Position numbers and translations under genes: made by a program. A stretch of 64,000 nucleotides of DNA from Coffea arabica (Eukaryota > Streptophyta > Magnoliopsida > Gentianales > Rubiaceae), in the NCBI RefSeq assembly GCF_036785885.1, contig NC_092317.1:3908501-3972500 (forward strand), in the 5' to 3' direction. Shown one piece after another: positions 17,932-51,814 of the stretch. Position 1 is the stretch's first letter; every line of letters begins with the position of its first letter. The notes below the pieces were generated by a model. The model saw only the letters and a list, made by a program, of their open reading frames with translations, was not told the origin of the DNA and did no database searches.

Positions 17932-18639
17932 GCCCTCATAATAGTTGATTCCCCTATTTCGTTCTAGGGGCTAAATATTACTCGCATGAATGGAACGCAA
18001 CTTGCATACTTTTGTGTGCTTGTGGGCTGCTGCTTGCGTGAAATGCGTGTCGCAGAAAGCATAGCTTTTGTTCGAGGACGTCTGCACGTAGGGTGAAAGG
18101 AGATTTTTTTGGGATGAACAGTTGTATTGTGCTATGATTCGTGGAGGGACTAAAAAAAAAAAATAGTATGCTAAATCAGATTTGCTGCTGTGATGAGTAG
18201 ATTCTCAACTCAGAGGATCACCCGTTTGGGAGGACAGGCCACTAGAAGAAGTGCGGCTGCAAGCCATTGGTCGAGAATCTGCTTCAGTTTTGCTACATTT
18301 GACTGATGTAACATGTCACATTTGTGTCCAATGCAGTGCAAATCTTAAACGGTGGGGGGCTCCGAGGCTGTGATTTTAACGATGCAAAAACTGATATTTA
18401 CTTGGCTATGATCATTATTGTATTGTTTAGCAATTTTTGTTTTTTTTGGCGTTCATTCCATGATTCCAACCTTGATTATCCGTCGTGTTTCATCTTAAGC
18501 TCCATTATAGTTTGGGTTTTCACTTTCCATTATAGTTTTATCAAAATGTTGCTGGAAAACCTTCTTGTTACATTGCTAGTCAGATTCTTAACCACAGCCA
18601 CAGTTGATTGATTCTGTGCTTTACACCGAGAGGACAAAA
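17932..18639. other. Upstream region of the receptor kinase gene
   Basis: This is non-coding DNA upstream of the minus-strand receptor kinase. No convincing TATA box or other feature was identified. Confidence 0.4.
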
Positions 18640-25777: not shown

Positions 25778-26920
25778 CTACCAGTTGAGTTGTTCTTCAG
25801 TAATGTGATGATCTGCACTTGGCTCAATCCAACAGCTACGCAATTGCTCCGGAGTATTATATAGACTTGCACTCGAGAAATCCGTCAGCAATGTGTGAAA
25901 CTTTTTAGTGTCGAGTGAATAAAACACACAACACCCTTTGTGCAACCTTGAAAAATAGATCTTATTTTGCATTCCTTCTATGACTTTTTTTCTTGAAAAG
26001 GAATTTGTGGGGCTAATAAACACCATATTATCACCCAAATCAGATACCTCTTCCCAAGCCATCTTTGTCTCGTCCAACCTAAAAACAGAAATCTGTGAAC
26101 CCAGCCGCCGGACAAACACGGAGATGAGCTCCCCATCAATCTCAAGTAGATATCTTTCATGGCCTCCTTTATAGATTTTCTGGGGTTTGACAAGAACAGT
26201 CCACTGATTGTCCTCGGGACTGAAAACTCCCAAATTCCCTCCTTCACCCAAGCAATAAAACATGCCCTTGTGGAAAACTGGATTGCAGTAAGATGGAATG
26301 ATGGGCAGATTGTTTTCGAACCTGTAGAAGTTCCAATGTTTTTCTCCACGACGAATGATTGAAATCGCCACATGCCTGTAAAACAAGGCCGATAAACCAA
26401 AGACCAAGCAGTCCGGAGATGCTGGTGTTGACAGAAACGTTATAACTCTTAAGACGTAACGCTCAGGATCAGGTACAAGTGGCAAATACATCTTTGCTTT
26501 GGTGAATGGATTGTAAAAGAATACCGAGAAGCGCCCTTTCGACATTAGCAACCAACCCCCCTTGGAAAAACGTAGCACAGAAGAAATAACTGTATCACCA
26601 CCAGGAGGAGGCTGGTGAGATGGCTGTGAATGCCCAGACAATTCAGGGGAACCGAGGCAGTATGCATCTCTATAAACTGGATGGCTGAATTTGCATGTCC
26701 CCCGGCTTAAATCTTTATGCATGAGCCACTGCGACTGAGGCACCGGGAATCGGATTGGGGATTGTTCGATGGGATCAGGGACCGATTTCCATGTTCTACA
26801 CACGTTTCGGAAACGCCTGGCATCGTCCAGAAATAGATGTGACAAGATCAAGGTCAAAAGCTCCTCTGGAACGTTAGTCCAATCTCTCTGCTCCATGTTC
26901 ATCCCTTCCACAACGTCCAT
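25778..26920 (-). CDS. F-box protein with DUF295-type C-terminal domain (At1g57790-like)
   Basis: A single exon of 380 residues. Residues about 13-55 (WTNVPEELLTLILSHLFLDD...) form an F-box, which binds SKP1 in SCF ubiquitin ligases. The rest (about 70-350) is the DUF295 beta-propeller-like region, with blocks such as GGWLLMSKG, FYNPFTKAKMYLPLVP, NPVFHKGMFYCLGEGG, RYLLEIDGELISVFVRR and GMQNKIYFSRL. It would act as the substrate adaptor of an SCF ligase; the target is unknown. DUF295 F-box genes expand quickly in plants, and a broken relative lies head-to-head 1.5 kb away (28409-29089). The start was taken at the first Met before the F-box. Confidence 0.9.
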   Translation of the reverse strand: MDVVEGMNMEQRDWTNVPEELLTLILSHLFLDDARRFRNVCRTWKSVPDPIEQSPIRFPVPQSQWLMHKDLSRGTCKFSHPVYRDAYCLGSPELSGHSQPSHQPPPGGDTVISSVLRFSKGGWLLMSKGRFSVFFYNPFTKAKMYLPLVPDPERYVLRVITFLSTPASPDCLVFGLSALFYRHVAISIIRRGEKHWNFYRFENNLPIIPSYCNPVFHKGMFYCLGEGGNLGVFSPEDNQWTVLVKPQKIYKGGHERYLLEIDGELISVFVRRLGSQISVFRLDETKMAWEEVSDLGDNMVFISPTNSFSRKKVIEGMQNKIYFSRLHKGCCVFYSLDTKKFHTLLTDFSSASLYNTPEQLRSCWIEPSADHHITEEQLNW

Positions 26921-28408
26921 CCCTTTTGATTCTAATGGCGGTTTGATTTTAAGGAAGATTGCAATACCTCTTGTAATTAAGACTTAATTAAAAGAAGAAG
27001 ATGAATGGAAGACAGCAATTTCACCAAGATATCAATCCAATATCGCACAGAATTCTGAGCCATTGTCACCGTCTAATATTTTGACTTCAATCCAATGGTA
27101 ACTATTTAAGCCACAAACGGCAGTAAAACAAGCGCTTAGCTTTGATACGAGCAATCAAATTGAAACAAACTTGGTTCTATCTATCAGTAATTCTATCTAT
27201 CAGTAGGCTTGTTTAACGGCATAGGGCATAAGTATTGTGACGAATCTCACTAAAATTTTTTCAGATGACATAGCAAGAGAATAGAGTCAAAGTTAGTAAC
27301 ATGTTAAAACTTACTAAGCAGAATCAGTAAACAAGTGTAATCAGGGCGTACCTTTCAGATTGAAGATGCAAAATATGTGTGCATGTGTCTAACGCTGGTT
27401 CTTATACGTGTTTTTCCCTTCTTTCTGCTTTTATATTCCCTGCCTACCCCTCAAAATTTCGACTCATCTACTTTGGTTATCGGCTTCGTTTGAAGGTATT
27501 GTCCCCAAATTCTATTTTATTTTTTTCTGTGTACCTGTGTTCTTGTCTAAATTTTACATCATAATATTCGGTCCGAAACTTTTTTTTTTCTTTAATCTCT
27601 CTCTCTTTTTCCCCCCATATATTTACCTGAGGCGGCATATTTCCTATTTGTTTCGTCCGTTGATGATCATGGGCCCCAGAACATCTGGAGAAGTTCCGGG
27701 AAGCTTACTGCCATATTACAATCCATTAATTTTAATTAATAATTCTTCAAAATTTTGATCATACCAAGCTTAATTTGTTACGGTAGTCGTGCATATTGGA
27801 AGATTAGGAGGCTCGTTGAAGTTTAGTGCCACAGTGCAAATCTTTCAGCCTTTTTTTTTTTTTTAATGCTTTGCTGCTTTTTCTTTCTTTTTATTTATTT
27901 CTTGGTTGCTTATTATTACCTGTGATAATCACGAGGAGACTGAAGATTAGGAGAGCTCTAAGAAAGTTTACACTTGCTTGTATACCGTACTGCTAATCTT
28001 TAAGCTTTCTAATGTGAATTACTTTATGGGGTAGGTATTGTTTTATCTTGGCTGCTTAGAATCTTGCTGTACATGTCCCCAGTATGTGGTAAAGTTTACA
28101 TTATCACCTCTTTCATAAATTCGACTAATGAACTAATTAAGAGAATTAAAAGAGAAAATCATTGGGAAAAATGTAGCATGATGCTCATCTCTGCATGTTT
28201 TTATTTCTTTAATCATTGAAGAGAATCAGACGTCAATTAAGCACTCTTCTTTTTATATGGTTAGCTTGAGTTCATATTGATCACTATAGTGTAGTGGAAA
28301 CTGATACTACTATTATATATATATATAATCAAATCATTCTTAGAGTAGTCAAATGTCCTATCACATAACAATGTATTGACTGACTAGCTAAATTTGTACA
28401 TCTTGTAG
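26921..28408. other. Spacer between head-to-head F-box-type loci
   Basis: This includes the upstream region of the minus-strand F-box gene. T-rich tracts near 27400-27620 and 27850 and an ATATAT run near 28314 are simple-sequence. No F-box-coding remnant belonging to the plus-strand pseudogene was found. Confidence 0.45.
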
Positions 28409-29089
28409 ATGATGATGATGATGAATATAATTAGAGACAAGGGGCGTTCCTCAGTACCCCCAACCCCGAAACCTCATCGGTGGCTCATGTTCTCGCATGG
28501 AAGACATTCAGATATCCAAACCTTCTACAGCATACTGGAAGACCGTTACTACGTGAGAAAATTACCAGCGGGAAAATTATTAGCGCAAGCTGTGAAGGAT
28601 GGATGATGATAGTAGATAACCATAAGGATCCGATTGATTGCTTTTTGTTAAATTTAGTCTCAATGGAAAAAGTGATGATGATCACAGACTTGAGTTGAGG
28701 AAACTAGGAGCAGAAGAGGCACCTTAATGTTTGGTGCCTGGAATCATTGGATCGGATCGTTACTTGATTGAATGTAATGGAGAAATGTTCCTAATTTTGT
28801 GGAGAATCAGAAACACGGATTCAGGAGATTGACGTATTCAGATATAACAAGAAAAGCTTGGGTTGATGACATAGGTGATCGCGCTTTCTTCATTTCTCAA
28901 CGGGCTAATTCTATGTCATGTTGCGGTGCTTCAGAATCAGGGCTCAAGGGAAATTCCATCTACTTCACTTACTGGGGAGACAGCGGCCTCTACGTATTTG
29001 ATCTCAAAGAAAAAACCAACTATGCGTCCCGTCCTTGTCCAAAACTGCCTAATTTGTCACCAGCTCATTGGGTTAACCCTTCACCATAA
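28409..29089 (+). pseudogene. Broken DUF295 (F-box family) gene
   Basis: Three frames carry successive parts of a DUF295 domain. 28409-28570 encodes HRWLMFSHGRHSDIQ...YYVRKLPAG. From about 28570 another frame gives KIISASCEGWMMIVDNHKD and LLNLVSMEKV. A third segment near 28733-28800 gives GIIGSDRYLIECNGEMFLIL, and 28850-29060 gives WVDDIGDRAFFISQRANSM and NSIYFTYWGDSGLYVFDLKEK. At least two frameshifts and in-frame stops separate them, with no splice sites that would rescue the frame. The N-terminal F-box is absent. It is a relative of, not a copy of, the intact gene at 25778-26920. Confidence 0.8.
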
Positions 29090-29289
29090 TTTCTTACGGC
29101 TTAACTACTAGTAAGTGCCTAATTTTATTGAGTCGACCGGGTTAAACGCATAAAATCCCTACAAGGTTGTTCTCTATTATGGCTGCAAAGATTTATCTCG
29201 CGTTTTGGAGTTTCGGAGATTCAAGGTGTTTATTTTTCAGTTGATAATTCATATAAGAAGGAAATTCCTTCCGCTAATGCAGCTTTACA

Positions 29290-29320
29290 CCCCCCCCCCC
29301 CCGGCGCGGGGGAACCAAAA
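29290..29320. repeat. Poly(C) tract with A-rich tail
   Basis: Thirteen C residues (29290-29302) are followed by GGCGCGGGGGAACC and eight A residues. The last part resembles the 3' end of the SINE fragment at 41237-41334 (GGGCGGGCAACC plus A run), so it may be a tiny truncated SINE end. No target-site duplication was found. Confidence 0.35.
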
Positions 29321-29703
29321 AAAAGGCTTGTAGTTCTTTCGTTTGAATAGAACTAGTGCTAATATTTTCCGTGTTAAGTTGATTAATTTTTAGCCGTTAT
29401 ATATTTCTTATAATGTAGAGAGTTATATAATTATTATAAGTCTAGCTTAAATTATAAAATATTAGTGCGGTAAATTGGTTGGATGAATATAGTGTTAATA
29501 GTTTGTGAAGTATGGAGGATATTTTGTAATATAATGGTTAATAAAGTACTATAATTGAGACAATACAGTGTCGACATTTTGTGTGGTATGATTTGCATAA
29601 ATTATGTGGTCTGGGTGAGGTAATTATAAAGATACCCGTCTATATTTATGTATATCTCTATTACTCACTAAGTTCCATAAATATGGGCCTATTTCCTTTT
29701 TTT

Positions 29704-30960
29704 TGTGCACAAATTAAAACATTTAATCAATATAATCACAAGAATTATTTTTCTTCCATATTTTTGTAAAATGTCGCTCACTAATATTAGATCATTAATC
29801 CACATTAAGAGCCATGTATTATTACATTGTTTTTGAAATTTACAGTACTTTAATTTTTTTAATGTAAGAAACAATGTAATTAATGTTGCATGTTTGACTA
29901 AAAGAATAATAAAAAAATAGCATACAACATTGCTTTTCAATTTAGAGTAATTTAGAGCCTTTAGGAAAAATGAATATATATACATTAAATTTAGAGCCAT
30001 TAGGAAAAATTTTATAATAATTATATATATACATTAAATATGGATATTTATCTAACAATATAAAAGTGAGAGTTGCCCCATGAACAATGTTTTTTTGTCA
30101 AGCGGTTATCCTGCAATTGTTATTGGATGCCCAGACTATTAGTAAATAACATACTAATTATTCTTTTTTATAGAATGAAAAATAAGAATAAAAACAAGGG
30201 CATTAAAAATTTGTAATAATTATATAGACTAATATGGATATATAGACTAATATATCTTTATAATTGTATGTTTTAAAAAGTAGTAGGATTAGAAACCATT
30301 TTTAGTCAACGACACCTTAACCGATTTTGGTTAATTGTGATAACAATGCTGGACTATTTTTCTTTTTTTTTTTTTTTACTGCTGTTCAATTTTTGGGAAT
30401 CATGCAGTCAAAAGCTACTGTTGAACATGCTAAACAATCACTGCATTCAACAATTTTAAAGAGCACTATTTTATTTCATTTTTTTGCAATATATGCATTC
30501 ATTTTTTTCCAAACAATTTTATTTCATGTCGCAGTAATAAAATCCATTTTTTAAAGTCACTAAAGCCAATAATAATTTATTAATTATTTCCTCAATAATT
30601 GTGTATTTACACTCAACATTATTTAGATTGTTTCTTACATTAAAAAAATTAAAGTACTGTAAATTTCAAATAAATTTAATAATACATGGCTCTTAATGTA
30701 GATTAATGATCTAATATTAGTGAGCGGCATTTTACAAAAAATATGAAAGAAAAATAATTGTTGTGATTATATTGATTAAATGTTTTAATTTGTGCAAAAA
30801 AAAAAAAGAGGAAAAAGCCAACAAATACAAAAGCCATCAAAGTTACCCATAATTACCAAATAACCGCTTGACAAAACGTCACTATTCATAATCCAACTCT
30901 TTCTTTTATATATTTAGAAAATCACTATTCATAATCCAACTCTCTCTTTTATATATTTAG
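29704..30960. repeat. Complex palindromic AT-rich region
   Basis: Two sets of inverted repeats are interleaved. Arm set 1 is 29704-29890 with 30615-30800 (about 187 bp, high identity, including GAGCCATGTATTATTA and its complement). Arm set 2 is 30045-30112 with 30859-30957 (TTGTCAAGCGGTTAT and its complement). The order is 1, 2, 1', 2', so they cannot be the nested arms of one hairpin. There is also a direct tandem pair at 29948-30045 (TTTAGAGCC.TTAGGAAAAA...) and another at 30871-30960 (ACTATTCATAATCCAACTCT twice). Two MITEs inserted or recombined together is the likely cause. Confidence 0.7.
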
Positions 30961-31012
30961 ATTTAGATGAATGCTGACCTGCTTTGTCCTCTGATGCACC
31001 AGCTGTTGTCAT

Positions 31013-31718
31013 TAGGGGTGGCAATTTTCGACACGACCTGAAAACACGACACGAACCTAACACGAAATTAATGGGTTTGGGTTGAGGTTTCGAGAATTCG
31101 GGTCAGAAACGGGTTGAACCCGATGAAACCGAAAAGAAAACATGTCGATTTCGGGTCAACCCGTGGTGACCTGATATGACCCGATATGACCCGTTTACGA
31201 ATTAAAAATAATTTAATAAACATAAAAATAATTTTATCTAACTAAACTAAGTTATTCTTTTTTTCAAAGGCATTAATTACTTAATCCTAAATGAATTTAT
31301 TTAATTTGTGTGAAGTTGAAATTATTATATTTGGACAAATAATATATTATATTATTTTTTACTTTTATACTGTTTTAATTTATTTTATATTTTGTTTGGG
31401 ATAAAACACTTTTACGGTGTTTAATTTATTTTAGATTTGGTTTAGAATTATTTATTTAAATTTTTATTACTTGATTATGTAATTAGTTTTGTGAGAAATT
31501 GATTTTATTAGAAATTACAGTGATAAATTAATAAATTAAAATTAAGTTTCGGGTCATTTCGGATCGACCCGTCAACCCGTCAACCTGAAATTTTCGGGTT
31601 CGGGTCAGCATACCTGACCCGTCACAGGTTGACGGGTCGGGTTCGGGTCAACAGATTTTCTGACGGGTTGACCCGAACCCGACCCGTCAACCTGATTTGA
31701 CCCGAATTGCCACCCCTA
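31013..31718. mobile_element. hAT-type non-autonomous element with perfect 8 bp duplication
   Basis: This 706 bp element has inverted ends TAGGGGTGGCAA...TTGCCACCCCTA and is flanked by an exact 8 bp duplication GTTGTCAT (31005-31012 and 31719-31726). Eight-base duplications and these termini are diagnostic of the hAT superfamily. Subterminal regions are packed with GGGTC/GACCC motifs in both orientations (31020-31200 and 31550-31700) around an AT-rich core, the usual pattern of transposase-binding sites. No transposase is encoded. The intact duplication suggests a fairly recent insertion. Confidence 0.92.
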
Positions 31719-31726
31719 GTTGTCAT

Positions 31727-34700
31727 GCTTTCAAATTGAAGGCTAACCAACAATGTAAGCTCGGTAGCTTCATTGGTTCTTATCCAGACGTCACCGTTTT
31801 GAGTCCCACTTATTACTGCGTAGTGCATCTTTAATCTGGCACAAGTCAGGATATCCCTGCGTTAGGATACCTCCTTCTGTTTCTTAGGAACATTATTGAT
31901 TCTTTCAAGATTGCACACAATATGCCCACAGAAATCCCTCTTGAGGGCGGATCCTAATTTTTAACATATTCGTCTTCTCGACTAGCTAAATTGTGGTTTT
32001 TTAGTCGGAGTTGCATAGGTTCCTTTTGTAATTAGTCCAATAAAGTTTAAAAATTGGTAATTTGCATTTCAAAATCTAATGTATGCACTCCCAAAAGAGG
32101 CAAACTAATGAAATTGAGTTGACTTTTTTTTTTTTTTTTGAATTTTTACATTAATTATTCATTTATCTTTTCTTCTTTTTGCGTAGAGCTGAGTGTTTTT
32201 TTTTTTTTTTTTTGGTGTATAAGTGAGAGGATTTGAAGGAGAAGGGTTGGATAGGATGATAAGATGGGAAGGATTTTTGTGCTTTCAGTTGCACCATTGT
32301 TATTCAAACTAATTCCAAAAAATATATATATAAGGTACAAGAAACGAAGGAGAGCTACAAAAAAGAATGAAAAAACAAAATGTACACCAAGTGACAAAAG
32401 AACTTGGGCTATTCTCTTGAAGTAAAATTTTTCCAAGAGTTAAAAAAAAAAAAAAAAAAAAACACAAAGGCTACTCGTCACATGTTGTTTCTTCTTCTAG
32501 TCAAACTAGTAGTTAAGTGAAATATTAAAGAGATGAAATGTGTTCATAAATCAAATATGCAATTGTCTAGTATAATTGATGCAATCGTTCAATTAGCATG
32601 TTCTAGCTAGAGCAGCAACTTCACTGTAAAAGAAATGTATTCACAATATATTGAAAATATTGAGTATCTTCTAGACTCTATGGCATCGCAAAGAGTTTTG
32701 TACAAATTCCATGAAAATGTATGATATGTTGCCTCCATTAATCCCTTTTTTTTTTTTTCCTAAGGGGAGATTTAAAGCCTTGTAAGGAGTATCTTCTAGA
32801 CTCTATGGCTTCAAAATAGGATGTCACGGTCATCTAACTAATTCTCCCTTAATAATTTTAGATGTTTATGTAAGTAAAAGTAATGAGGAAAAAAAAAGAT
32901 TTGTTTGAGGAAACACCAGAAAAAAAAAAAAGTATATTTGCTTAACGAAATAAGACTGACACTGTGAAATATCTAAGACAAAGAACAGATACTTGACAAG
33001 AAAAAAAAAATAATGAAAAAAGAAAATAGATGAGAAACTTTTAGTCCTTGTCTAACCCAACCTGAGAAACAGACGCAGTTGATGATGGGCCATGTCCAAA
33101 ATTTCCACGCGAAGCCGAAATGCTAAATCCAAGTTCTCTGAAGATGAACAGAGTTGTTATTTTTTTGTGCACTTTGCTATTGGCTTTTAAATTTTGTCAA
33201 CGAATACTTTGAAAAACAAAATTAAATTGCTTAAACAAATGCATTTTTGCAGGCTTGCACGTCTTGATCTTGTTTCTGCTTCTCGTTAGATAGTTTACCT
33301 GTCAAGAATAAAGAGAAACTCCACATTCCCTGAGCTAGCATCCAAATAAGTTGTATAATTTTTCCATTCAAAGGTAAAGGATATTTGTTTGGTTGAGATA
33401 GTTTAGGTTAGATTCCTTAATCATATCTAATAATCGTGCAGCAAGCTTGTGCATTTTGAACCATACAACATGAAGTTGGTCCATTGTATGCATGAAATTT
33501 ATTATCGAATTTTTCAGCAGTGAATTTGTTGTACTTTAGGGAAAAAATTAAAATAAAAAGTTCCCAATTAACAAATACAATTCAACTTTTTGCATACAGT
33601 TTTTTCCCTTTTTTTTTTTTTCCAAATGAGAGGTTTTGAATCGAGGACCACCTATTTATAATTTCTCCCACCTTACTATCCAAATCAACCCTTTCCGGAA
33701 AACTGACACCTTTCCTTATGAGTAGAAGGAAAATAATACCCAAGAAAATGCATTGAAAATCTCGGATTTCATTGATTAACACACAAGTGTTCTTCAAGAA
33801 ATTATTCGACATAATGGAATAATGGACCTCAACTATGTCTGATATTATGAACGTTATAAACGCTAAAAAATCCAGAGTCATCACCACAACTGAGTACATC
33901 TTGCAGAAGCAGTGGTTCAAATTAACTTGCCATCTTCTTTTACATCAACCTGTCAACTTCTCCATTCTTGTTATCAGTTGAGTGTCTGCCAGCTAAAATC
34001 AATAGACAAAATGACCAGGATACGTATGCTGCACGCCTTCTAATATGTGGTACTATTACTTTACTTCCACAGCATTCAACAGTATTCAAGAAATACATGC
34101 GCTTTCTGATATGTATATCGGATTTCACGTAATGAGAATTTTAATCAACTTATTTATCATAATCTCAAGGGTCATTATCTTATGTTTCAAATTGAAAGAG
34201 AGATTTGTCCGGCAGGTCATTAGCTACTGCTCGGATCACCTAACACCCCGACTTCAATTATTCCTTACTTGCTGCAAAAAGAGAAAACCAAGTAAGGAGA
34301 TGGAGTAGTTAGTTTGATATCAAGTAATCCTTTTTTTTTTTTTTTAATTCACTTGGGACTTGGCAGACGACGCCAATTTTAGATTTGGGGTTAACAAAGA
34401 AATTGATTAGGACGTCATTTAAAAAGAAAAATACGCATAGCCCCTCTCTCCCTGCAACAAATAATGATAGTATTTAACTGAATGATGATTAAAAGCTGTT
34501 GGAGGTATTTATGGTATGGAACACAAATCAGTGCGAGGAAACTGGTCCTAGAAAGTTCATGCATTAAGGAAGATCATGATGAAGTACAATGCTTTCTTGC
34601 CACATTCTGAGTCCGATATTCAGGCAACTACAGCCGCAACCACAAGGATAAACAAGAAGAAAGGAAGCACTCTCAACTCTGGAAAAGAGACTGGGGCACC

Positions 34701-35375
34701 ACCATCTTCCTTGAGGTGGAAAAGTTGTGCTAAAGTATCAGCACATCTGATGGTTGATGGTTTTATGCCTTTCTCCATCAAACTGAAAATTCTGGCACAT
34801 GCATGTCTTGGCATTCTCCATACTAGCGAATTTGGATCAGGGCAACTGAACAAGTTGATCAATATATATCCACGTGATGTATTTACTCCTCAAACAGAGA
34901 CACTTCAGCAACGTGAGCATGTCGTAATAAGCTTGCCACTAGTGAAAACATGGGTCTATATTTGAAAGATATGCTGGGCAGTCAACAATTGCATCAGATG
35001 ATATTTTAATGAGGATAAAACATAAAGATTTACATACAAAATTTCCTAATGTTTGGGCTACCAATCATGCAGGAACAACTTAGATATGGCCACACATAGG
35101 TGAAAGAAGTCGGGGGAAGAAATCAAGATTACCTGTGAGTGACATCTATCCGAAAATGATAGCCAATCTATGGACTATTTTAATCGTTTCCAAGCATGCA
35201 TTTGGATTTTGGTCATAGTTCAACCAATAGAACTTTTTCTCGTACGTTAAACATATCAAACAATATGATTCTGTGACATGATTAAGGCAATATAATAAAC
35301 CTAGTAAAACCTTAAAAATATATCTTGTTTTCCGTACTGTTTGGGCTGCTCATGCGTTACCTACTATTCTTTGGT
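31727..35375. other. Gene-poor spacer
   Basis: No gene could be supported. Homopolymer A or T tracts recur at 32120, 32200, 32440, 32748, 33608 and 34330. Repeat C copy 2 occupies 33345-33690. A 129-codon plus-strand frame at 34576-34965 and an antisense frame at 34862-34620 have no recognisable domain. TATAAATA at 35376 begins the next gene's promoter. Confidence 0.45.
33345..33690 (-). repeat. Dispersed repeat C, copy 2 (inverted)
   Basis: The reverse complement matches 23430-23825 across nearly its whole length with scattered substitutions and small indels; see that entry. Confidence 0.7.
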
Positions 35376-35383
35376 TATAAATA
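35376..35383 (+). promoter_or_regulatory. TATA box of the HypSys-like precursor gene
   Basis: TATAAATA lies 45 bp upstream of the ATG at 35428. Transcription would be expected to begin about 25-35 bp downstream, giving a very short 5' leader of roughly 15-25 nt. Confidence 0.65.
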
Positions 35384-35427
35384 CACTTAGACTTCAGCAG
35401 AAGGCTTGTGTCTTAGTCTAAGTTAAT

Positions 35428-36734
35428 ATGACGATTCTCGGTATGAGAGCTTTCTTTCTGATTTGCCTCTTTTCTCTTTTGGGAATTCAAGCAAGACCTT
35501 TGCTAGGTAACTTTCACGTTTCAACTCCTAACTATGCTTCCTCGTTATCAGGGATTTGAATTTAAAATCTATTACTAAGCAGCCTGAAACAACAATGGCA
35601 TACCATTGTCTCTGTGCTGCTACTTCTTCCACTATATAAGTTGGATTTAGTGAGGCGCAGACTCTAAAATGTTCAAGTCAGTATACTTCACACTCATTCT
35701 TGCAGTGGATTTTCTTATTCAATCTTAATGTTTCATGATACTTGATCTTGTGATCTGGTGTCTTCACTGATTTCAGTTCCTTTCAACACTTTCCACATTT
35801 TCCTCTAATTAATATGTGAACGAATGCATAACAAATTTCATTACTAGTTATTTCTGCTCTAATTTGTTATGATATCTTTGGAGGCTTAAATGCTTACCCT
35901 TCTGCCAAGTCATTCTTTCCTTGTACGAATTAATGATTGTTATGCCAACTATTTTCAGGTTCAATCCATTTATCTCAAGATTTATTGATATATTGTGCAT
36001 GGTACCATGCAGTTCCTGGAAAGTACTAATGGATGGTTTAAAATCTTTTGATTTTGCACGTTACTAGCTTGATTACCTAACGATTTCCTTGCGCTGCAGA
36101 GCATGGTTACACCTCTATGGTCGAGTCAAATGACGGAACTCCTGCTCCTAAGAGTGTAGACAAAGTCCTGTTGAGGATGATCATAACTTACGAGCAAGCA
36201 CCAGGCTTGCATCTGGTTCAACCGTCCTTGGCAACCAGCTATGGAAGGACTCTTTCACCTCCTCCTCCACCAATGCCAGCATCACCAACTCACTATCATG
36301 AAGCAAGCCATGGAGTCGAGCAAACGCCAGGCTTACATCTGGTTCAACCGTCCTTGGCAACCAGCTATGGAAGGACTCTTTCACCTCCTCCTCCACCAAT
36401 GCCAGCATCACCAACTCACTATCATGAAGCAAGCCATGGAGTCGAGCCAACGCCAGGCTTACATCTGGTTCAACCGTCCTTGGCAACCAGCTATGGAAGG
36501 ACTCTTTCACCTCCTCCTCCACCAATGCCAGCATCACCAACTCACTATCATGAAGCAAGCCATGGAGTCGAGCAAACGCCAGGCTTACATCTGGTTCAAC
36601 CGTCCTTGGCAACCAGCTATGGAAGGACTCCTTCACCTCCTCCTTCACCAAAGCCAGCATCACCAACTCACTATCATGAAGCAAGACATGGAGTCTATGA
36701 ATCACCTCCAAATCCCTTCCTAGCCTCAAGCTAA
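35428..36734 (+). CDS. Secreted Pro-rich peptide precursor with four 42-residue repeats, probable preproHypSys
   Basis: Exon 1 (35428-35506) encodes a signal peptide, MTILGMRAFFLICLFSLLGIQA; exon 2 (36100-36734) joins in phase 1 to give RPLL/EHGYTS. Total 237 residues. After a short acidic/basic spacer come four tandem 42-residue units with consensus TPGLHLVQPSLATSYGRT, then LSPPPPPMPASPTHYHEASHG. Hydroxyproline-rich systemin precursors of tomato and tobacco have a signal peptide and several 15-20 residue peptides that often start near GR and contain PPPP or PPSP, Ser/Thr and sometimes THQ. GRT..SPPPPP...SPTHYHE fits that pattern well. The mature peptides would be prolyl-hydroxylated, glycosylated and released to the wall as wound/defence signals. 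This family call rests on motif resemblance. The exon junction is inferred from splice consensus (CTAG/GTAACT, TGCAG/AG). A generic Pro-rich wall protein is the alternative. Confidence 0.72.
36192..36695 (+). repeat. Four tandem 126 bp coding repeats
   Basis: Units start at 36192, 36318, 36444 and 36570, each exactly 126 bp (42 codons). Units 1-3 differ by only a few bases. Unit 4 has several changes in its last half (for example SPPPSPKPASP for SPPPPPMPASP and EARHG for EASHG). The exact periodicity keeps the frame and points to recent unequal crossing-over or gene conversion. Confidence 0.95.
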
Positions 36735-38035
36735 AGCTTGTTCTGACTGATCAAAGGTGTGGACGGTGAATATGCATGAAGATCTTCTAGTCTAAGTTCT
36801 AGTATTACTTGTAGTAGCCGCTTGAAGCAATAAAGTCTTTTCTGCTGCTTGTGCTTTTCCCTTATAAATGTAACTTCCACTATGTAGTTGGCAAATATGA
36901 AGTTGGTTTCTGTGGCTCTAAGGATCCATGCATTCATGAGTCTCAGCTTAGAATTTTTGGTTAACATTCGATTTGCTATTTTCCTTTTTCACCTTTTATA
37001 TCCTTATAAGGTCGTTGAAGCTCCAGACACGATTCGGCTCTAATGTCTTGATTCTCGGCACAATGATCCGGTTCCAACGTTCTTGAGAGCAAAAGACATA
37101 AACAGATGTAAACAAAAAAGAGACTGTCTGAGAACACAGACGTTTTCTGGTAAATCCTTGGGAACGTAAAGGAATTATGCGTTTGGAAGATTTTTTAAAA
37201 ATAAGTACTCTAATACTATGTGTGATATAATATATGTCGTACGCAAGATTAAAAAAAATGTTACTAAAAAGGTAGAACGTAATTCAAAAAAATATGTTTG
37301 TGACATAAACAAAAAAGAAATTTCAAATAATAATGTATTCAATCACATTTTGTACTGCATGCATCTTTGATAATACGAAAGAAAATGAAAATGAAATTTC
37401 GGAAAAACAAAAAGGAAGTATGAAACTTAACCGAGAAATACATTAATCTTTAGCATCATCAGGACAATAATTTTTTAACTTTTCTAAGTAACAAGTGAAG
37501 TCTTGATTAAAGAAGATTCATTTACGAAAGGATCGGAGTAGCAAATTATAGACCTATGATTAATTGAAGTGATAAATTAGCTCCGGGGAGGAATACGAAT
37601 GACCCCACTAGGTGAAGACCTACATAAGAGCAGGGGGGGAAAAAAGAAAAAAGAAAACTCGTACTAATAAAAATGATATAAAGCTTGATTTCCTATTAAA
37701 TGTGCATCATCATAGAGGACCTGTTGAATAGGAAAAACATACCGTATTGATGCCAAAAGTTTTATAATTAGTCAGCATACACAGAACACTAATTACCTTG
37801 GACTTTTTCTTTTACATGAAATAATCCAATTGTACTAAATTTTTGCAGAACTTTCATGGCTAGGAAGGTAGAGTTATCTGAAATAGCTCTATTTTTAATT
37901 TTAATGGACATTTGTAATCAGACCCTCAATCCACTTATTGATTTGTTCTTTTACACTAAATCAAACTATCATCCTTCTATTTTTAATTTTGTTTTTCTTC
38001 CAATCAAAAAAATTATTTCCTTTCTTTCTCTCAAG
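36735..38035. other. Spacer downstream of the peptide precursor
   Basis: This holds the precursor 3'UTR, with an AATAAA-type poly(A) signal at 36828-36833, and AT-rich non-coding DNA. No gene is supported. Confidence 0.5.
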
Positions 38036-41334: not shown

Positions 41335-41464
41335 AAGAAAACGATTTCTTCCTTTCACTAGAGGTCTAGAAGCACGCTTTTTAAAGATGGTATTGCTCGA
41401 AACAGAAACGAAGTACAGTCCCTCTTTCACTCTTTAGCGCTTATTTCTGGAAAAAACGGACAAA

Positions 41465-44359
41465 ATGGCGAAGAAGGAGACTGGAGCTTCTGACGTGCGA
41501 ATCGACAGCGTAGTAATAACACCATGGAAGGCCCTTCTAACGAACGTAACCTGCGGAGTAGGATTAGGAGTAGCTTTCCATGCTGCCAATAATTTCTACT
41601 CCATCAATTTGATTCAAAATCCGGCAAAAACCCTCCGTCTGATCTGGGTACTGACCATATCTATCAATTCCTGTCAACTCCAAGTTGATTATTTCTCATT
41701 TTTTAGTTTTCTAATCTCTCTCTCTCTTTTTCAATTGTTGGTTTGATTTTTTGAAGGTTATTGAGGCTCCAGTCGTGATTCTGCTGTACAGTCTCTTTCG
41801 ACATCGTCCTAATCAATGCTCTGTAATTCCAATTAATCCCATTTCCTCGTCTGATTAATTTCTTTTTTTTTGTTGGTTATTTTTATATGTTAATCTCTTC
41901 TTTTTAACTATTAAACGAGGTTTTGATATGTGTATTGGACAGTACTTGAAAGCCGTAGTACGAGGTTTGTTGGCACTACCTGCTGGTTAGTCGTTCATTG
42001 CTTTTTTGTTTTTATATAATTTAATTAACTTTTATCACTCAAACTTCTTGGTTAAGTGGTTGGGATTTCAAAAGTTGCAATCTTTAATTGCTCTGTGCTC
42101 TTTATTTTTGTTTCTTATTATTTTTTAAAAATTTATGAAGTGATTTCTTTCTTTGAAGGTTAATGATGTACAAGTAATAGATAAAGTTGAAGGCTTTGAG
42201 AAGTAATTTTTAGTAATTTATAGGTTGAAAAGAGTTACGCTAGCACTGTTTAGCACTTGTACCTGTAAAAAGATAGGTTATTTGAATACAGAACAAGGAT
42301 ATTACTTGAGGACTCATTCTTACACAACTTTCTATCTTTTGTTTCAATACTTTGCCTGCACTAGTGGTATAATAGCTTTATAGCTGAATGTTCGTCTGTC
42401 AATACTTGCTTAACATTTTTTGTTATTTTGTTGTCTTTTTCATTATATTGGATTCTAAGTATGTTGGTTTTTGCATGTAAATACACAGGGGCAGTAGTGA
42501 ATGCACTTGGAGCTATAGCATTGGGAGCACCCATGATTCAGTATGTAACTTATCTGGGTTGTTTCCAGTCTATTTATTATGATTTTGAGAACTACTGAGG
42601 TTAAACTTCAGGTTGGACAAATGGTCTCTGTTCTATTCTATCCCATGGTACAGAACTGCTCGTCGATGTTATGGAGTATAGCAAATCCTAGACTATCTTG
42701 CACTGAAATGGGTGAATAGCAGTAACCATTACTATGATCAAATAGACATGTGCAGAATAATACAAATCCTGAGTAGCAAGCATGAAAAAGAGTTTTTTTT
42801 TTTTAAATTATAGTTCAGGAGTTATTTTGACACTTCACAACTATTTTGTGGAACAAATTGAGATAATTTTCACAGTTTTTATCGTTATCTTGGATCGGAT
42901 GTTTTATTCTGTGGTTAATTACAGGAACTTCAACAGGACCCTCCACTGGTCTCTTCTGATGTCAGTGCTTACTGTAAGTGTTTCATTTGACATCTCATTT
43001 GCCATTCTGTATCTCATGCTTCAGTAAACTCCTGGATCAACTGGACTAGCTCCGAAATTTGTGCTGGAAACCTAGTAACTTGATGTAAAATTTGCTTTGT
43101 TTTTGTAAGTAATCATAGATAACCATCAAATTTTCCTCTGTGCCATAAGGATCTTAATCAGTCATTTCCTGGTCTGTAAAACTTCTGCTGCTGTTGGCAG
43201 TGTGTCCCAGCAGCTTCTGTGTTTGGTTCTTCTTGGGCTGACTGGCACCGGATATTTGCTCACACAAAGTAAGCATATGAAACTAATGTGATTTTATTTT
43301 GCCGACATCATTCCCTTTTTGTTTTTCTAGCATTGAGAAGTAATACTCGTGTTATTTGACTTCTGCAATTGTTCGTAACTTTTTGTTAGGCCAAGTGGAC
43401 CTATAGAGTACATGATCTGCCTACCTGCTCATGGAGCTGTCATTGGAGCATGGTTTGGCGCTTGGCCAATGCCACTTGACTGGGAAAGACCATGGCAGGT
43501 AGGCTTACCTTCCTATCGAATACCGGTCATTTGAAACTTAGATGATTTTTGCATTCCTTTTATCTACAGTTTTGACTCTCTCTCTCTCTCTCTCTTTTTT
43601 TCTTCTTCTTCTTTTCTTACTGTGTACATCAAGAGTTTGTTCATCAAGAACTTAGTAGTAAGAGTGGCTCAGAAACCATTGATACCTTCAGGAGTGCCCT
43701 GAGGTCTACCATCACATGGCCAAAAAATCTTCTCTTGTTACATTCTCCAAAATAACACAAAAGTAAAGTATGGAACTTGATATGTTAATGCAGCGTATGA
43801 TATAGTCAGGGTTCCCTGTTGACAATTCAATAATTGATGCTTAGCTTTCATGGTTAGATTGTTGTGTTGGCTCTGATATTCTTGTTGTTCACTTTGCCTT
43901 TTCATATAAAGATGCCATATTAACATTGCCTTAGTATGAATTTTAGACCCTGCACATGAAATTGAGTCTTGAAAAGCACTGGAGAGATGGTGAGGGTTTA
44001 CGCATAGTAGTCCTGATGTGGTTCTGATAATTCCATGATGTAGTGATGTGTTGATATATTGTTCCAAGCATAATCTCCTAGGTCATGTTAGTTGCAATGG
44101 TTTTGGTAAATGTACTTGACCATATATGTTCGAGCTTGGCAATTAGATTCTAACTGTTGGATATTGTTCAGCCTTGGTTTGCAGCATGTGGTTCAGTTGT
44201 CATGCTTTGTACCCTGAGACTGAAAGTATTTGAATTTGTTTGTAGGACTGGCCGGTTTGTGTGAGCTATGGAGCTTTGGCTGGGTACTTTGTCGGGATGG
44301 CGGCAGCTTTTGGTTTTGTCCTCTTCCTAAATAAACGAAGGCATGTAAAAGGAGACTAA
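41465..44359 (+). CDS. PIGF: PIG-F, GPI ethanolamine-phosphate transferase stabilising subunit
   Basis: Eight exons, 41465-41647, 41757-41822, 41943-41985, 42489-42540, 42925-42973, 43201-43268, 43390-43498 and 44246-44359, join in frame to 227 residues, the usual PIG-F size. All introns are GT-AG. PIG-F is an ER multi-pass membrane protein that partners PIG-O and PIG-G and is needed to add ethanolamine phosphate to the GPI anchor. Hydrophobic segments include ALPAGAVVNALGAIALGAPM and GALAGYFVGMAAAFGFVLFL. Family-typical stretches are FGSSWADWHRIFAHTKP (about 141-157) and CLPAHGAVIGAWFGAWPMPL followed by DWERPWQDWP. The C-terminus NKRRHVKGD is a basic tail. Splice sites were placed by frame and protein continuity. 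Confidence 0.92.
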
Positions 44360-46846
44360 TGATGGAGAATTCGACATTAATCTTATTGGAGGTTGCTATC
44401 GATGACCCTATTGATAGACTGAGTTGCATCCAGCTGACCATAGGACCTCACCTGCTGAGCGGAGGTTTTGTAATTTTTTCCCAGTAACACTACAAAACTC
44501 ATCCCTCCCCAGAACTTTTCTTTTTGCCCGGGCAATGCAATTTGCAGAAACTTAGAAGTACCTTTGGTTCCCACTGGAAGTTCATTCTTTACCCTTTCTT
44601 TTCTCTTTCTTTTTCCCACTGTAACTCTATTTCTTCCATTATGATCTGCTACTGTCTTCTAAAGGGAAAATCCTCGTCTGGTGTATGCTGAGGTTGTGAA
44701 CAAGAAGGATGTTATTCCTGAGAGATTAGCATCCATGGCACACATTCCTCAAATTTTCGCTTTCCATTGTGAAAAGCTTGAATTACTGAGTCCTGGTTTT
44801 TGCTTACAGGTGAAGATATTTCACAGCCATTGTTTATGCTTTGTCTTTCAAATAAACTTTGGGCAGATGGGACACTTTATACCTTTTTTTAACCCACCAT
44901 GTTTGTACATTTCCACTTCTCATTGACTCACCATGACTTTTGACGAGGATAAGCAGAGACACAAACCAGGTCACCACTCATCACCCATCACTCACTAATC
45001 TTGTAATAGTGCTGCAATTAATGATGCAAGGACCAGTACGTACCCAAATCTTATTTGTCCATTTTCTAAATCTACCCAAGAAAAAAGTATGGTACCATGC
45101 CAACTGATCTTTTCCTTTTCATGCTTTACCATGCTACGAATGAGGGATTAGGCAACAAAATACCAAAAAAATAATAATAATAAAGAAGGAGAATTTTGTT
45201 TAGCATTCAAGCTCATCAAAAGGCAATTCAAGCCATTGGCCAACAAGCCTAGCGGTGGCGGGAAAATTTACCGGACGATAACGAGCACCCTTTCTTTCCA
45301 AGCCTCCGGTTCTGTAACTCCGCGTTCTCGTCACGCCATGTTATGCGTACGTGCATGCTAGACTTCCATAAAAGCCCTTGGGCATTCCATCACAATGACA
45401 ATATTGCCCCAACAATGACCAAATGTCGTGCCATTATAGGCTCGTCACTCATCAAACTGTCACAGCCGGTCAAGCTACCGGCACTGCCACATCATCGAGG
45501 AGCTCAACCCGCGATGCCCCAGATGGCTCCTCTCTTTGTTACACGTGTAACGGAGAAAATTGCAAAAGTGGGCCCTACAACCGAACCCTTTAAAACTCTC
45601 TTAGAGCCCTAAGCGCCAAAAAAAAAAACCCCCACCTTTCCCCCTCCCCTCCCCTAACCCCAGGCCACTCTCAAGTCACAACCCCCAAAATCTCTCAAAA
45701 ACCCCTTCACTTTCTCTCTCTAGAAAAAATCGCTTCTTTGAAATTTCTCCGATCATCTGTTTCCATCATCAACTGGTACCTCCACTTCAGCAACTGGTAC
45801 TTGTTTTTAACATTTCTATATGCATATGGGTTTAGTTCTCGATTTTAATTTGGAGCTTTTCTTCTTTTTTTTTTTAAAAAAAAATTCTTATTTAAGCTTT
45901 ATTTTTTTGCCTGTCCTGTATTTAATGTGTTCGGTGCCTTTTGTTTTTTCTTTTTTGGTTGTTGGATGATGCAATTTTTAGACTTCTGTAATTCTTTTAG
46001 TGCTTTTGGTGTGGTTTCTTGGATTATCGTAACCATTAACTGTGGGCATGTCTGGGCTTTTGGAAGTCTACAACAATTTTCGAAGATATTAATCGCAACA
46101 GGGTTTAGGGCTTTTCTAGAATTGGAGGTTGTATTCATCTGTTTGCTGTGTATATCTTGCGCACAGATGGCGGTTTTTTTTTTTTTCTTTCTTGAAATGT
46201 TTGAGCTCAAATTTTGCTGGGTGATTTCCATCCGATTTCTCATTATTGGGACTCACAAATATTACCAGCAAATTATTTCATGTCTTGGTTCTGATGAAAA
46301 TGTTATTGAGGGAGATACTGTATTTACCTATATGCATACAAACGAATTGCTGATACCCTTTTTCCTCCCTTTTTTTTTGGGTACTTAGACGGGATTTATT
46401 GATTTGAGCAATAAATGGGCACGATCACTGTTCAGACAAGGTGGTTTAGGACTCTCTCTTTATTAGATCTTAGGTTTGTGTGCTTTTTGTTAAATTTGGA
46501 GTATTCAGCAAGAATTATGCCAGGTTTTGTTAATCGCTGGCGAGATAGTGTGCACCTACTTTCCAATTTTGCAAATGTGATGTAATTATCCCTTTATTCC
46601 ATTTCAAGTTCTTTTTGCACATTTTACTTGAGAAATGAGATTTGATGTGTTCACCTATAGAAATTGCTTATGCTTGGTCTTCTCCCTTTAACTGTCAGCT
46701 TCTACTAATCTTGATCAGTTTAGAGATTTGCTTGTATGTTTGCTGGTGCTGGGTATTTTGCATTGACATTCTACTGTGTATCGTTTTACAGAGTTAGACT
46801 GGTAGACATCACTCTCTTGACTTGTCTCTCCACTCTGAAACTAATT
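44360..46846. other. PIGF 3' flank and promoter/5'UTR of the RING gene
   Basis: The first few hundred bases are probably PIGF 3'UTR. A C/T-rich stretch at about 45610-45730 followed by splice-like sequence probably holds the untranslated first exon of the RING gene. A long intron would end at TTTTACAG (46792), just before the exon with the ATG at 46847. No other gene is seen. Confidence 0.5.
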
Positions 46847-49800
46847 ATGGGATTTGACAAGCCAAATGATGAGCAATATCCACCCATGCCATTGCAGGGT
46901 GATGGTGGATGTATGTTTGCCAGTAGGGAAGGTGGAACTGTTGACTGTGGTCAGAATTTTCCAAGCTGTACCAGTTCTGCTGACTTTTCATTCCCATATG
47001 TATCTCTGGCTAATTCTGCTTGGAATGACATGCATGCAACCCATCATTCTTACCCACATGACCTTAGAAATGGTAGCCATTTGATGACTGGTCTAATGGG
47101 GCTTGACAACTTGCAAAGTCAGGACAACCTTAATTTGCATAGTCTCAGAGGTAATGTGTTTATGTACCTTGGCAATCTCAGAGCTTCTGAAAGTTTATAT
47201 CCTGAAGGAAAATTAGAAAAGATGTTGGTTAATTAACTAAAGTAATATTGTTATTTCAGGTAGCTTGAGGAATGTAGATGTTCAGAATACTCAGGCTAAC
47301 ATAAATTTTTTGCCAACTGGGAGTAAAGCTGCTGGAGATTACCAAATGAATGTTCTGGGAGGAGAGGCAGAAGGTAGTACCGTAAACTGGTCACAGATTA
47401 GTGAGAGTTCTTTAAATTTAGGATGTGGTGCATCCTTGTCACACCAAAATACAAGTTTCCTTGAAGCTGGAGTTAGAAATGATGTCAAAGTAAATGCCTT
47501 CCATCCAAGACAAGTGGACGGAAGTTTTTTAACCCTTGGAATTGGAGGTAATCCAGAGACAAGAGCTAAATCTAAATTTGATTCCCGAGAGGTCGCCAAT
47601 AAACTGGTGGAAGCAGTTGGGCCCCAAAGCAGCAGTTCCCAAATTCAACCTGCCACAAGTCTATCAAGTTTTCAAACTTATCCTGGCTGTTCTCCAAGTA
47701 CTGTATACAAACTAGGTGACTGGACAACCTCTAAAAATGTTGATGCTATTGTTGGGATGCGTTCAAGCCCATTTATCAGTCCTCAGATGCCAGAAGCTTT
47801 TAAGCAATATGATTTCTTTGAGAATAATGCTAAGAATACAAGTTTTGTCGATGAGTCTATGGGAAGAAATTCTGCACTAGAATCTTATAAATTTTTTCAA
47901 GGTGATCCTTCTCCATCTTCATTGCCGTTTAATAGCACTTATGCTTGCGTCCCCCAACCTGGATATACCAAACAGTCAGAGTTGGGATCAGAAGCCTTCG
48001 AGTCTACCTGGGTGTCCACTCAACCAGCCAGAGACCTTCTGTGGAATTCTCATTCTATAGAGCCAGGAAATATCTCATCCTCCTTTGGTTCCCATTGTAG
48101 CAGCCTGAGGGATGTCTCTCTCCCACAGGATTACTTAGGTGAGTTTTAGAAGTTGTTTCCTGTCTCTTGTCACTTACGAGTGTAGATTACAAATTTGGCT
48201 GGAAGGTTGTCATTTTTATGTTTATCTCATAAACAAAGTCAAAGTTGGGTTCAATGATTTTTATTGTCATCAAGCTGTCTAAGTTTCTTTATGTCTTGAA
48301 TGACCAAATTACGGTTGCACAAAGGTCCATATTTTTTAATTTACTTCTTTAGAAAAAAGGAGGAATTGTTTCCCCTTTTTTATGACAAAACTAGTATATG
48401 GATAAAGTCACAATCCATGGCAGGCAATTTCCTTGGACTGAGATGGAAGCTTTTCATTCAAGTGCCCAAAGTGATACATGCCTACATTCACTGTTGTTGT
48501 GAATTCTCTAGCAGCATGACAACTTTTCTTATTGCATTGAGTGTAAGCTTATCTGTAATTTGGGTTGTAGACTGTGTAGAAATTTGCCAATTAATAAAGA
48601 TTTATAAGGTAATGAGAGTTGGAATTGATTTTGATTTTTGCTGTTCCACACCTGAGACAGAGAAGCAAAAAATGTTAGCTTGTGTTAGTATAGCCATTAT
48701 CACTTAGAACAATCTGTGAACCTCAACTTCAGGAATTTCTGTGCTTCCATCAGAGGGTTGTGCAGCTCAAGCTGTTGGAAGTGGTGATCAGTGTGCCAGT
48801 GGTCAGCCAGATGGTGAGTGCATCTCATTTATGCGTATTTGCATCACATACAAATGTACAAACTCCTTACATGCCAACTACTTTGCATTTTATATGCAAT
48901 TCTTTGTTTAAGAAGCTTTTGAAACTCCTTTGGCATTACCATTTTTCTGCCAATTAGGAGAAAAAGGAAAAGCTTTTGTCAGATATCAAGAACGTGTTCA
49001 CATAAACACAATGGCCTGATCTACTTTTCTGTTAGTTCTTTAACATTATTTTGTAGCCTAGTTCAATTTGGATGGAAATGAGATTATCTCAAGTAGTTTC
49101 TTTCCTTTAAATAAAATTTCTTCAAGTGATTATGGCCGTGGTATCTCACACAGGAAGTGTTCATTTATTATTTTACTCGGCCGTACCTGATCTTTTGTAT
49201 GTCCAATTAAAGTGATTGTGATCATGACTTCTACAATGTACTGAACTTGTTAAGTTTGGGGCTTGGGAACTAGAGGAAAATTTGTGGAGTTTGCGATAGT
49301 GTATGGTCTGATAGTGCTTAAACTAAATGTTTTTCCCCTCGTATAGAATCAAATAACAGCAAAATGGACCAATATTTTTCATCTGCTATCCTTGAATTAA
49401 CTAGCACAATGAAGTGAGCAAATTTCATGGTAAGCATTTACTTGCTACTATTCTTCTGCAGGCCATGTATCTTCTCCTTACAAGGTTAATTCTGCACCGC
49501 ATTTTCGAAGCACCAATTATCCCAAGAATACCAGTCTTCTGATTGCAGAGGGTAGTGCTAACAAGCCTGCTATACGTGCTCCATTTCCTCGAAGGCTAGG
49601 GGTACAAATTGATGATCCTGCTGCTACTCAATCCGCTACTGGAAGTGTATTATCCGAGAATATGGGAGCCCAGACTAGGAGTAAGTAATTCTCAATTCAA
49701 AAGCAGCTCAATCCTTTTCATGATGCAGTTGAATATCATATCCTGTGGGCTGTTTGATTTAGTATATTGGGCTGCATTTTTTCTGTTTTGTCCTTCTTGA

Positions 49801-49939
49801 GACCTTAACAAGAATAGTGCTTTAAGGATGACTACAGCATTTTTGACACCCCAATGCTCGAAAAAAGTTCACCACCCACCAGAACCCCCCAAAAAGGGGG
49901 AAAAAAGATGAGAGAGAGGGAGAGGGAGAGGTTTTTTTC

Positions 49940-49970
<31 letters not shown>

Positions 49971-51814
49971 GTGTGTGTGTGGAGGAGAAGAAAGCACCAG
50001 TTGTGAATTCCATAGGCTGGTTTCTAGTAGTCAAGTATGCAAAATGCTCTAGTTTAGCCTTTGGTTGACTGCATATTAGTGATCTATGTTGGCTCCACTT
50101 TTTTGCTTTTCATTATTTGTGTTTTGTGTGTGACAAGAAGCTTTTCCTAGTGTGACTTATCAGGGAAGCAGGTTAGACTGGCCCCATACTAAGATAGTTC
50201 CTTCAGTTCAACTGATGTTACTTGAAAATTGTGTCGTGTTGAGCTAATTTTGGTAATATGACTCAATGTCAAGGTTCAAGGTGATAAGATTTTTATCACA
50301 TGATGGAAAGACGAAACAGAAAGAGAGAAAAATTTGAAAATAAAGACCGTCTAAAATCTGGTTCACATACCATGTGCATCATCTTTTGACCTTGTGATTA
50401 TGTTGTTAATTGTCCTTGGTGCTTGGTATAAATGTTCAGGTAATGAGCATCAGTCTCGAATTTCTGGACCTGTTCAGCTTGCTAAAAATTTTCTCGGGCC
50501 CATTTCTGGTATTAATCTATCATACTTGATATATTGCAATTTAGTCTATACATAAGCATAATATTCTGATGTTCAGATAATCCATAAGAGTGACGGTCTG
50601 ATGTTCCCAGGTCATCGTCAAGACCGTTTGGCAGCTAAATTTAATGTTCAAAGTCCCTCCCTCTCAACTGGTATTTATGATTAGATTTTTATCAGGAGAG
50701 AGAAATCTGAGTACCCTTATCGGCATGTTTCCTGTATGAAAATTTTTGTGTTTTCCTTTGTCTGAACTAGGTCAACCTCAACGTGCTGTCCCTGTTCGGT
50801 TTCCCAAAGATCTTATGAGAGTTGATCATACAACTGGTATTTGTTCCTTTAGAAGTGCTTATAGTGTTTTATGCAATCAGACTGAGTTTCATGGCCAGCT
50901 TATTGTGATTAATGATTATGATTGTAACTTTTCCACTTACAGGTCAGGTAGTTCCTCAAAAAATTGGTAGGACATCTCATGTTCATGGTGTTATTGGCCA
51001 GCCATCTCTTAAAAGGAGAGCAAATGAAACCCCATCAGTGCCTTCCTGGGGTCAGCGTAGGAGGTTTTTCACTCCCAGTTACCATTCTGCAATGAGCACT
51101 CCTGCTATTCCCCCTCTTCCTTCCACTTCGGCTCACATAAAGTGGACAGGTATTCCCTGGCACCCTTTCACTTGCACCATTTTCCTATAGTTTCGGATAT
51201 ACTGCACATCGTGGCGAACTGCAATTACTATTTATCCATGTCTGAGCATATAGATCTCCATTATTGACATTTAAGAGACCTGCAAGGAGCAGTATTCTTC
51301 AGAAACTGCATGGAAAGAAGTAATTTTTTCGTTTTAAACATGTTTATCGCATCACTGAACGTTGATATACCTTTCACATTTAGCGCAAAATTATTTCAAG
51401 GACCGGCTGACTTTGAGGATAACAATTTTGCCTAGGCTTGTCCTGGGTTCGGACCATATTTGTTCAAGTTGATCTAATGCAAAGTAACCACAGCGAGAAA
51501 AAATTGATTAATTTAACCAAATGCACCTTCTATGCTGCTACAATCTTGATAAAGATTACAAGAAGTGACTGTTAGACGTGCTTGCAGATTCTGAAAGTCC
51601 TCCTCGGCCAACTGGACATAGATGCATGTTATGCAAGAGGGATCTCTCTTTCAGACCAGAAGGCCCCATTTACCAGCCTATCAATCCCCCGGCTATCGCA
51701 GTTCTTCCCTGCGGCCATACGTTTCATGACCAATGCTTGCAGAATATCACCCCAGAAGATCAATCGAAAGATCCTCCGTGTATACCCTGTGCCATTGGTG
51801 AAAAACAAGCTTGA
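46847..51814 (+). CDS. Large RING-H2 protein, probable E3 ubiquitin ligase
   Basis: Nine coding exons, 46847-47150, 47260-48138, 48733-48813, 49462-49680, 50440-50508, 50611-50670, 50771-50836, 50943-51149 and 51588-51814, join to 703 residues. The N-terminal 620 residues are Ser/Asn/Gly-rich, low-complexity and probably disordered, starting MGFDKPNDEQYPPMPLQGDG. A basic stretch KRRANETPSVPSWGQRRRFF (about 570-600) could be a nuclear signal. The C-terminus is a C3H2C3 RING: C641-x2-C644, C670-x-H672-x2-H675-x2-C678, C693-x2-C696, with LPCGHTFHDQCL and PPCIPCAIGE. RING-H2 domains recruit E2 enzymes. It resembles plant 'RING/U-box superfamily' proteins of unknown target. All eight coding introns are phase 1. 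Confidence 0.88.
49949..49968 (+). repeat. Poly(G) tract in an intron
   Basis: Twenty consecutive G residues follow GA-rich and T-rich runs and precede a GT dinucleotide repeat, inside intron 4 of the RING gene. Such tracts are hard to sequence, so the length may be inexact. Confidence 0.7.

Follow-up and report, generated by a model that had tools for sequence, protein, structure and literature searches.

Does coffee possess a gene for a HypSys precursor? The question is raised by a gene at positions 35428-36734 of the window, by which we mean the whole analysed stretch of 64,000 nucleotides of Coffea arabica DNA (NC_092317.1, 3,908,501 to 3,972,500, forward strand). In passages of three papers, HypSys precursors are described as secreted proteins which are hydroxylated, glycosylated and cut to 18-residue peptides that raise jasmonate-type defence (PMC11371470, PMC8591736, PMC4621407). 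HypSys were reported there from tobacco, tomato, petunia, nightshade, potato and sweet potato, and in the literature surveyed they are confined to Solanaceae and Convolvulaceae (PMC4621407, PMC11371470, PMC8591736). Judged from its sequence, the coffee gene is very probably of the preproHypSys type, encoding a secreted precursor that would be cut into 18-residue wound or defence peptides and carrying an array with recent turnover.

Gene structure and surroundings

Two exons on the forward strand, 35428-35506 and 36100-36734, are joined by GT-AG signals to a single open frame of 237 codons, which is the signal peptide exon and the 35506/36100 junction that the sequence-only reading had proposed. 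Exon 1 starts with the ATG at 35428 and encodes the signal peptide MTILGMRAFFLICLFSLLGIQA, followed by RPLL. The intron (35507-36099, GTAACT...TGCAG) has the donor TAG/GTAACT after 35506 and the acceptor TGCAG before 36100, where exon 2 begins with AG. Both are identical across the three gene copies found in the genome, namely the window copy on C8 and two copies on C7, termed C7a and C7b. Exon 2 (36100-36734 including the stop, which ends at 36734) encodes a spacer of 31 residues, EHGYTSMVESNDGTPAPKSVDKVLLRMIITY, four 42-residue units and a tail of 12 residues, YESPPNPFLASS. An upstream TATA box had also been claimed, and the TATA-box-like TATAAATA is present at 35376-35383 on the forward strand, about 45-50 bases upstream of the ATG. 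This stretch is also kept in both C7 copies. Residues 1-22 contain a hydrophobic core, with a mean Kyte-Doolittle value of up to 2.67 in a stretch of 11 residues, and align with the reference signal peptides of tomato and tobacco, so an N-terminal signal peptide as in HypSys precursors is predicted.

A second in-frame splice pair, with a donor at 35518 and an acceptor ending at 36101, would add GNFH and looks weaker by consensus. The bases 35507-35518, just inside the intron, would encode this GNFH, which can be compared with the GNYH after RTLL in the tomato reference. The alternative pair gives RPLLGNFH, nearer to the tomato reference RTLLGNYH (N-terminal score 74 versus 51 for the canonical pair); with the canonical pair the sequence is RPLLEHG, which is more like the tobacco reference RTLLENHEG. 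We prefer the canonical pair because of its splice signals; the donor at 35518 may be used too.

Elsewhere the window carries an acyltransferase gene (Transferase family PF02458, 5588-6514, forward strand), an HSP70 gene (9463-11442, reverse strand) and an F-box gene with a KIB1-4 propeller (25781-26983, reverse strand). There is also a leucine-rich-repeat receptor kinase at 14567-17970 on the reverse strand, with LRRNT_2, LRRs and kinase in two frames and probably split by an intron. It lies about 17 kb from the HypSys-like gene. This closeness is probably due to chance; the receptor of HypSys is listed as unknown in the literature. A search of the window for tRNA genes was negative, and none of the Rfam families reached its gathering score.

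Tandem array and predicted peptides

TRF detected a single array in the gene (36191-36695, period 126, 4.0 copies, 97% matches, score 954, far above chance), which is among the six tandem arrays with a score of at least 80 in the window. Its units occupy 36191-36316, 36317-36442, 36443-36568 and 36569-36694 on the forward strand. They had been described as four exact 126 bp repeats. Four tandem 126-bp units are indeed there and are near-identical, but they are not exact: over 126 positions, the six pairwise comparisons show 1, 3, 4, 4, 5 and 7 differences. The closest pair is formed by units 2 and 3 and the most distant by units 1 and 4, and unit 2 differs from unit 4 in four codons, all of them non-synonymous.

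The 42-residue unit has the pattern EQTPGLHLVQPSLATSYG-RTLSPPPPPMPASPTHYH-EASHGV with minor changes between units. The earlier claim of four near-identical peptide units is right, but not all four peptides are identical: units 1, 2 and 3 predict the identical 18-mer RTLSPPPPPMPASPTHYH, and unit 4 predicts the variant RTPSPPPSPKPASPTHYH, departing from it at 3 of 18 residues. More than one peptide of 15-20 residues rich in Pro, Ser and Thr is expected of a HypSys precursor, and here four of 18 residues are predicted. As each unit spans a whole number of codons, two other frames across the array are open as well, 36181-36750 on the reverse strand (189 codons) and 36187-36723 on the forward strand (178 codons), and both look like side effects of the repetition.

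Similarity to HypSys precursors

The tomato and tobacco preproHypSys used as references are provisional, non-database sequences, checked by length against published values. They have 146 residues (tomato) and 165 residues (tobacco), and in tomato, peptides I, III and II are followed by segments of 4, 25 and 16 residues. The same tomato values stand in Table 1 of PMC11371470, and the same tobacco length in a passage of PMC4621407. For the third tomato peptide that table has 15 residues and PMC4621407 has 20, which is also the length in the reference sequence.

The coffee unit aligns with the tomato HypSys I reference (SYGRT-LSPPPPPMPASPTH with NYGRTPYKTPPPPTSSSPTH) at a score of 62, which was reached by 0 of 1000 shuffles, and by 3 of 1000 when Pro runs were kept intact. 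Against the full-length tobacco reference the match was weaker (score 45; 10 of 1000 shuffles, rising to 36 of 1000 when Pro runs stayed intact). At the N terminus, coffee RAFFLI...G.QARPLL is matched with tomato RAFFLI...G.QARTLL, and no shuffle in 1000 reached the score, whether for tomato (51), for tomato with the alternative donor (74) or for tobacco (45). Around the signal-peptidase site the coffee protein has GIQARPLL, compared with GAQARTLL and GAEARTLL in the references. This is a likeness at the protein level, whereas the published conserved feature is DNA, a stretch of 30 bp around the site according to a passage of PMC4621407. The likeness, first noted as one of style, thus goes further for tomato, where it covers both the unit and the signal-peptide and cleavage region, and is weaker for tobacco.

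Three coffee peptide types were also compared with five reference peptides over 26 residues, using 2000 shuffles with Pro runs kept. Five of the 15 pairs were reached by at most 3 of the 2000 shuffles: all three coffee types against tomato HypSys I, and two variants, C8 unit 4 and C7a unit 3, against tobacco HypSys II. The remaining ten were weak or null (28 to 734 of 2000 shuffles), such as units 1-3 against tomato HypSys III (617 of 2000). Peptide similarity to HypSys is therefore strong for tomato HypSys I and, in the variant units, for tobacco HypSys II. By aligning with both of these, unit 4 may form a link between the Solanaceae peptides and could represent the older form.

The resemblance to tomato preproHypSys (TomHypSys I, II and III) covers the RAFFLI...G.QAR.LL signal peptide, GN.H if the alternative donor is used, the YG/R start, a peptide of 18 residues that contains PPPP and SPTH and stands before an E, and several peptides in one secreted precursor. 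The difference is that the tomato reference has three divergent peptides, whereas coffee has four 42-residue tandem units, three with an identical peptide. With the canonical junction the N terminus is like that of tobacco preproHypSys (MR..FLI.L..S..G..AR.LLE), which has two 18-residue peptides, and PPSPKPA is common to coffee unit 4 and the tobacco HypSys II reference. However, the two divergent tobacco peptides sit towards the ends of the reference precursor without a tandem array, and coffee units 1-3 match them poorly.

Two controls show how far the score of 62 can be read. Among the 1535 stop-to-stop frames of at least 25 residues in the window, the frame of the gene gave the highest score against tomato HypSys I, and the runner-up had 40. 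A frame with a PPPPP block at another genomic locus (L017), a weak match that looks unrelated, scored 48, so part of the HypSys score comes from Pro-run composition.

This last result also favours a reading as a structural Pro-rich cell-wall glycoprotein, extensin- or PRP-like, whose repeats merely resemble HypSys. Extensins and Pro-rich wall proteins have repeated SPPPP together with YxY or VYK cross-link motifs. The mature part of the coffee protein is 20% Pro and 12% Ser with one Ser-plus-Pro-run per unit, which suits a wall protein, but it has 0 YxY, 0 VYK, only 3 Lys and a single Pro block per 42 residues. The motif -PPSPX- is common to HypSys and wall glycoproteins, as stated in a passage of PMC8591736, but the N-terminal match to preproHypSys falls outside any Pro-rich part, and L017-L022, those six of seven weak genome matches which have loci, score at most 48 against 62. 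We regard a wall protein as very unlikely.

A different secreted phytocytokine family with tandem domains (CEP, PIP, SCOOP or CLE) is already weak as an explanation and is extremely improbable. The family motifs SGP, SxS, the CLE-like R.VP.GP core and the CEP-like GHSPG occur nowhere in the protein, and HypSys is matched at both N terminus and peptide, although precursors with several domains are known in such families, for example the multi-CLE proteins in a passage of PMC2254619. A Pfam scan of the 237-residue protein gave two sub-threshold matches and no family that covers the protein, and a PDB sequence search gave one match, which was not significant (E 0.085). We conclude that the C8 homoeolog of coffee probably carries a functional gene of the preproHypSys type, which would bring the HypSys kind into Rubiaceae with a variant architecture of homogenised tandem units.

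Predicted processing

If expressed, the coffee precursor would be directed by its signal peptide into the secretory pathway, with a predicted cleavage after A22 (...GIQA/RPLL). Prolines of the PPPPP and SP blocks may be hydroxylated and arabinosylated. In each 42-residue unit, proteases would cut before Arg (SYG/RT) and around ...THYH/E, and the predicted peptide of 18 residues then stops just before an E, an arrangement like that of the tomato HypSys I reference. The processing proteases and the receptor of HypSys are described as not known in passages of PMC11371470, PMC8591736 and PMC4621407. One precursor would yield three identical 18-residue peptides and one variant, and these would be released to the apoplast to signal wounding or defence and to feed into the jasmonate pathway.

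Gene copies and homoeologs

The Coffea arabica assembly (1,197,963,845 bases, 131 contigs) was searched with both exons. Exon 1 gave three loci only among the matches listed, so that this count is a lower bound, and a protein search with exon 2 gave the same three loci and at least seven further matches, all with E of 0.18 and above. The window copy on C8 has four units and a full-length frame, C7a (L009) has three units, and C7b (L010) is a shorter, rearranged duplicate with two units, about 264.5 kb from C7a.

C7a is taken as the colinear homoeolog of the window copy because its matches of at least 400 bp, in a stretch of 69.5 kb, follow the window order between 2889 and 63147, with an identity that is mostly 91-99%. 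The identity drops to 87-90% just upstream of the gene, and the unmatched gaps include 27378-32644 and 52533-54998. Inside the latter lies an AT-rich tandem array (26% GC) at 53050-54304, with a period of about 410 bp, 3 copies and 88% matches. C7b, within 69.5 kb around the copy, matches 32257-37006 of the window in the same direction, and 41335-45848 and 49249-50436 in inverted direction.

Between a point about 1.5 kb upstream of the ATG and the first unit, the two C7 copies show a single difference over 2348 compared positions, gaps not counted. Positions 2393-5043 of L009 and 2424-5067 of L010 are 99.5% identical over 2.65 kb, ending within the repeat array, and other matching stretches between the two differ by about 4-13%. 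Further upstream C7a diverges from C8 and C7b, and past the units C7b diverges from C8 and C7a. Gene conversion, in either direction, and recent duplication both fit this near-identity.

Both C7 copies (L009 4700-5207 and L010 4724-5105) have in common an early TAG in exon 2, which gives 34 codons with the canonical junction. Only the window copy therefore encodes the full precursor under the canonical splice model. A bypass of the early stop in C7 by the donor at 35518 with another acceptor was considered and is unsupported.

Because two of three genomic copies have an early stop, the locus could be decaying, with the window copy as little used as the C7 copies and the repeats a result of passive turnover. 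The unstable unit number suits such decay, as does the divergence between C8 and C7, which is higher in the spacer (6 of the first 100 bases of exon 2) than in the intron (19 of 574). But the window copy keeps a full frame, splice sites and TATA are conserved, and neither C7 copy has lost the open frame beyond its stop. In a comparison of the nine units over 114 bases each, four were identical (0 differences), namely 2 and 3 of C8 and 1 and 2 of C7a, which also speaks against decay, though gene conversion could yield the same. We consider decay unlikely and retain the reading as a probably functional preproHypSys gene.

Probable array turnover and a possible effect on peptide dose

Counting all three copies, 7 of 9 units encode the identical 18-mer RTLSPPPPPMPASPTHYH, and the last units differ at 3 of 114 bases. 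The units with 0 differences may be due to constraint on the peptide, to homogenisation within the array or to exchange between homoeologs, any of which would fit the data. Near-identity of the units would come from recent array turnover, by unequal exchange or conversion, in which repeat number would change fast (4, 3, 2). Unit number does differ between homoeologs and between the C7 duplicates.

Repeat number could raise the peptide yield per translation. Like the coffee gene, yeast alpha-factor MFalpha1 has tandem peptide units in variable number; it is an unrelated protein, and the analogy is one of mechanism only. In yeast, more repeats give more peptide with diminishing returns (a passage of PMC5850478), and signal amplification was proposed for plant multi-CLE proteins (a passage of PMC2254619). 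A tentative and rather doubtful extension is that coffee HypSys has moved from divergent peptides to a homogenised one-peptide array, whose unit number (4, 3, 2) is a fast-evolving setting of hormone dose, and that the allotetraploid, having lost both C7 reading frames, depends on a single intact copy.

Meaning for coffee and the HypSys family

Sweet potato is a precedent for HypSys outside Solanaceae, and its IbHypSys precursor (Convolvulaceae) has six divergent peptides. The passages surveyed on HypSys or systemin together with coffee, Coffea or Rubiaceae describe no coffee HypSys. Chen 2008 or Pearce 2011 may mention coffee sequences similar to preproHypSys, and for this reason we do not claim priority for HypSys in coffee.

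If the Rubiaceae assignment is true, the HypSys family would be pushed back in the asterids, and coffee would gain a candidate wound hormone. A coffee peptide of defined sequence could serve as a clean probe for the HypSys receptor, which is listed as unknown. With near-identical units that vary in number between homoeologs, the relation of repeat number and hormone dose would become testable in a plant, as it has been in yeast.
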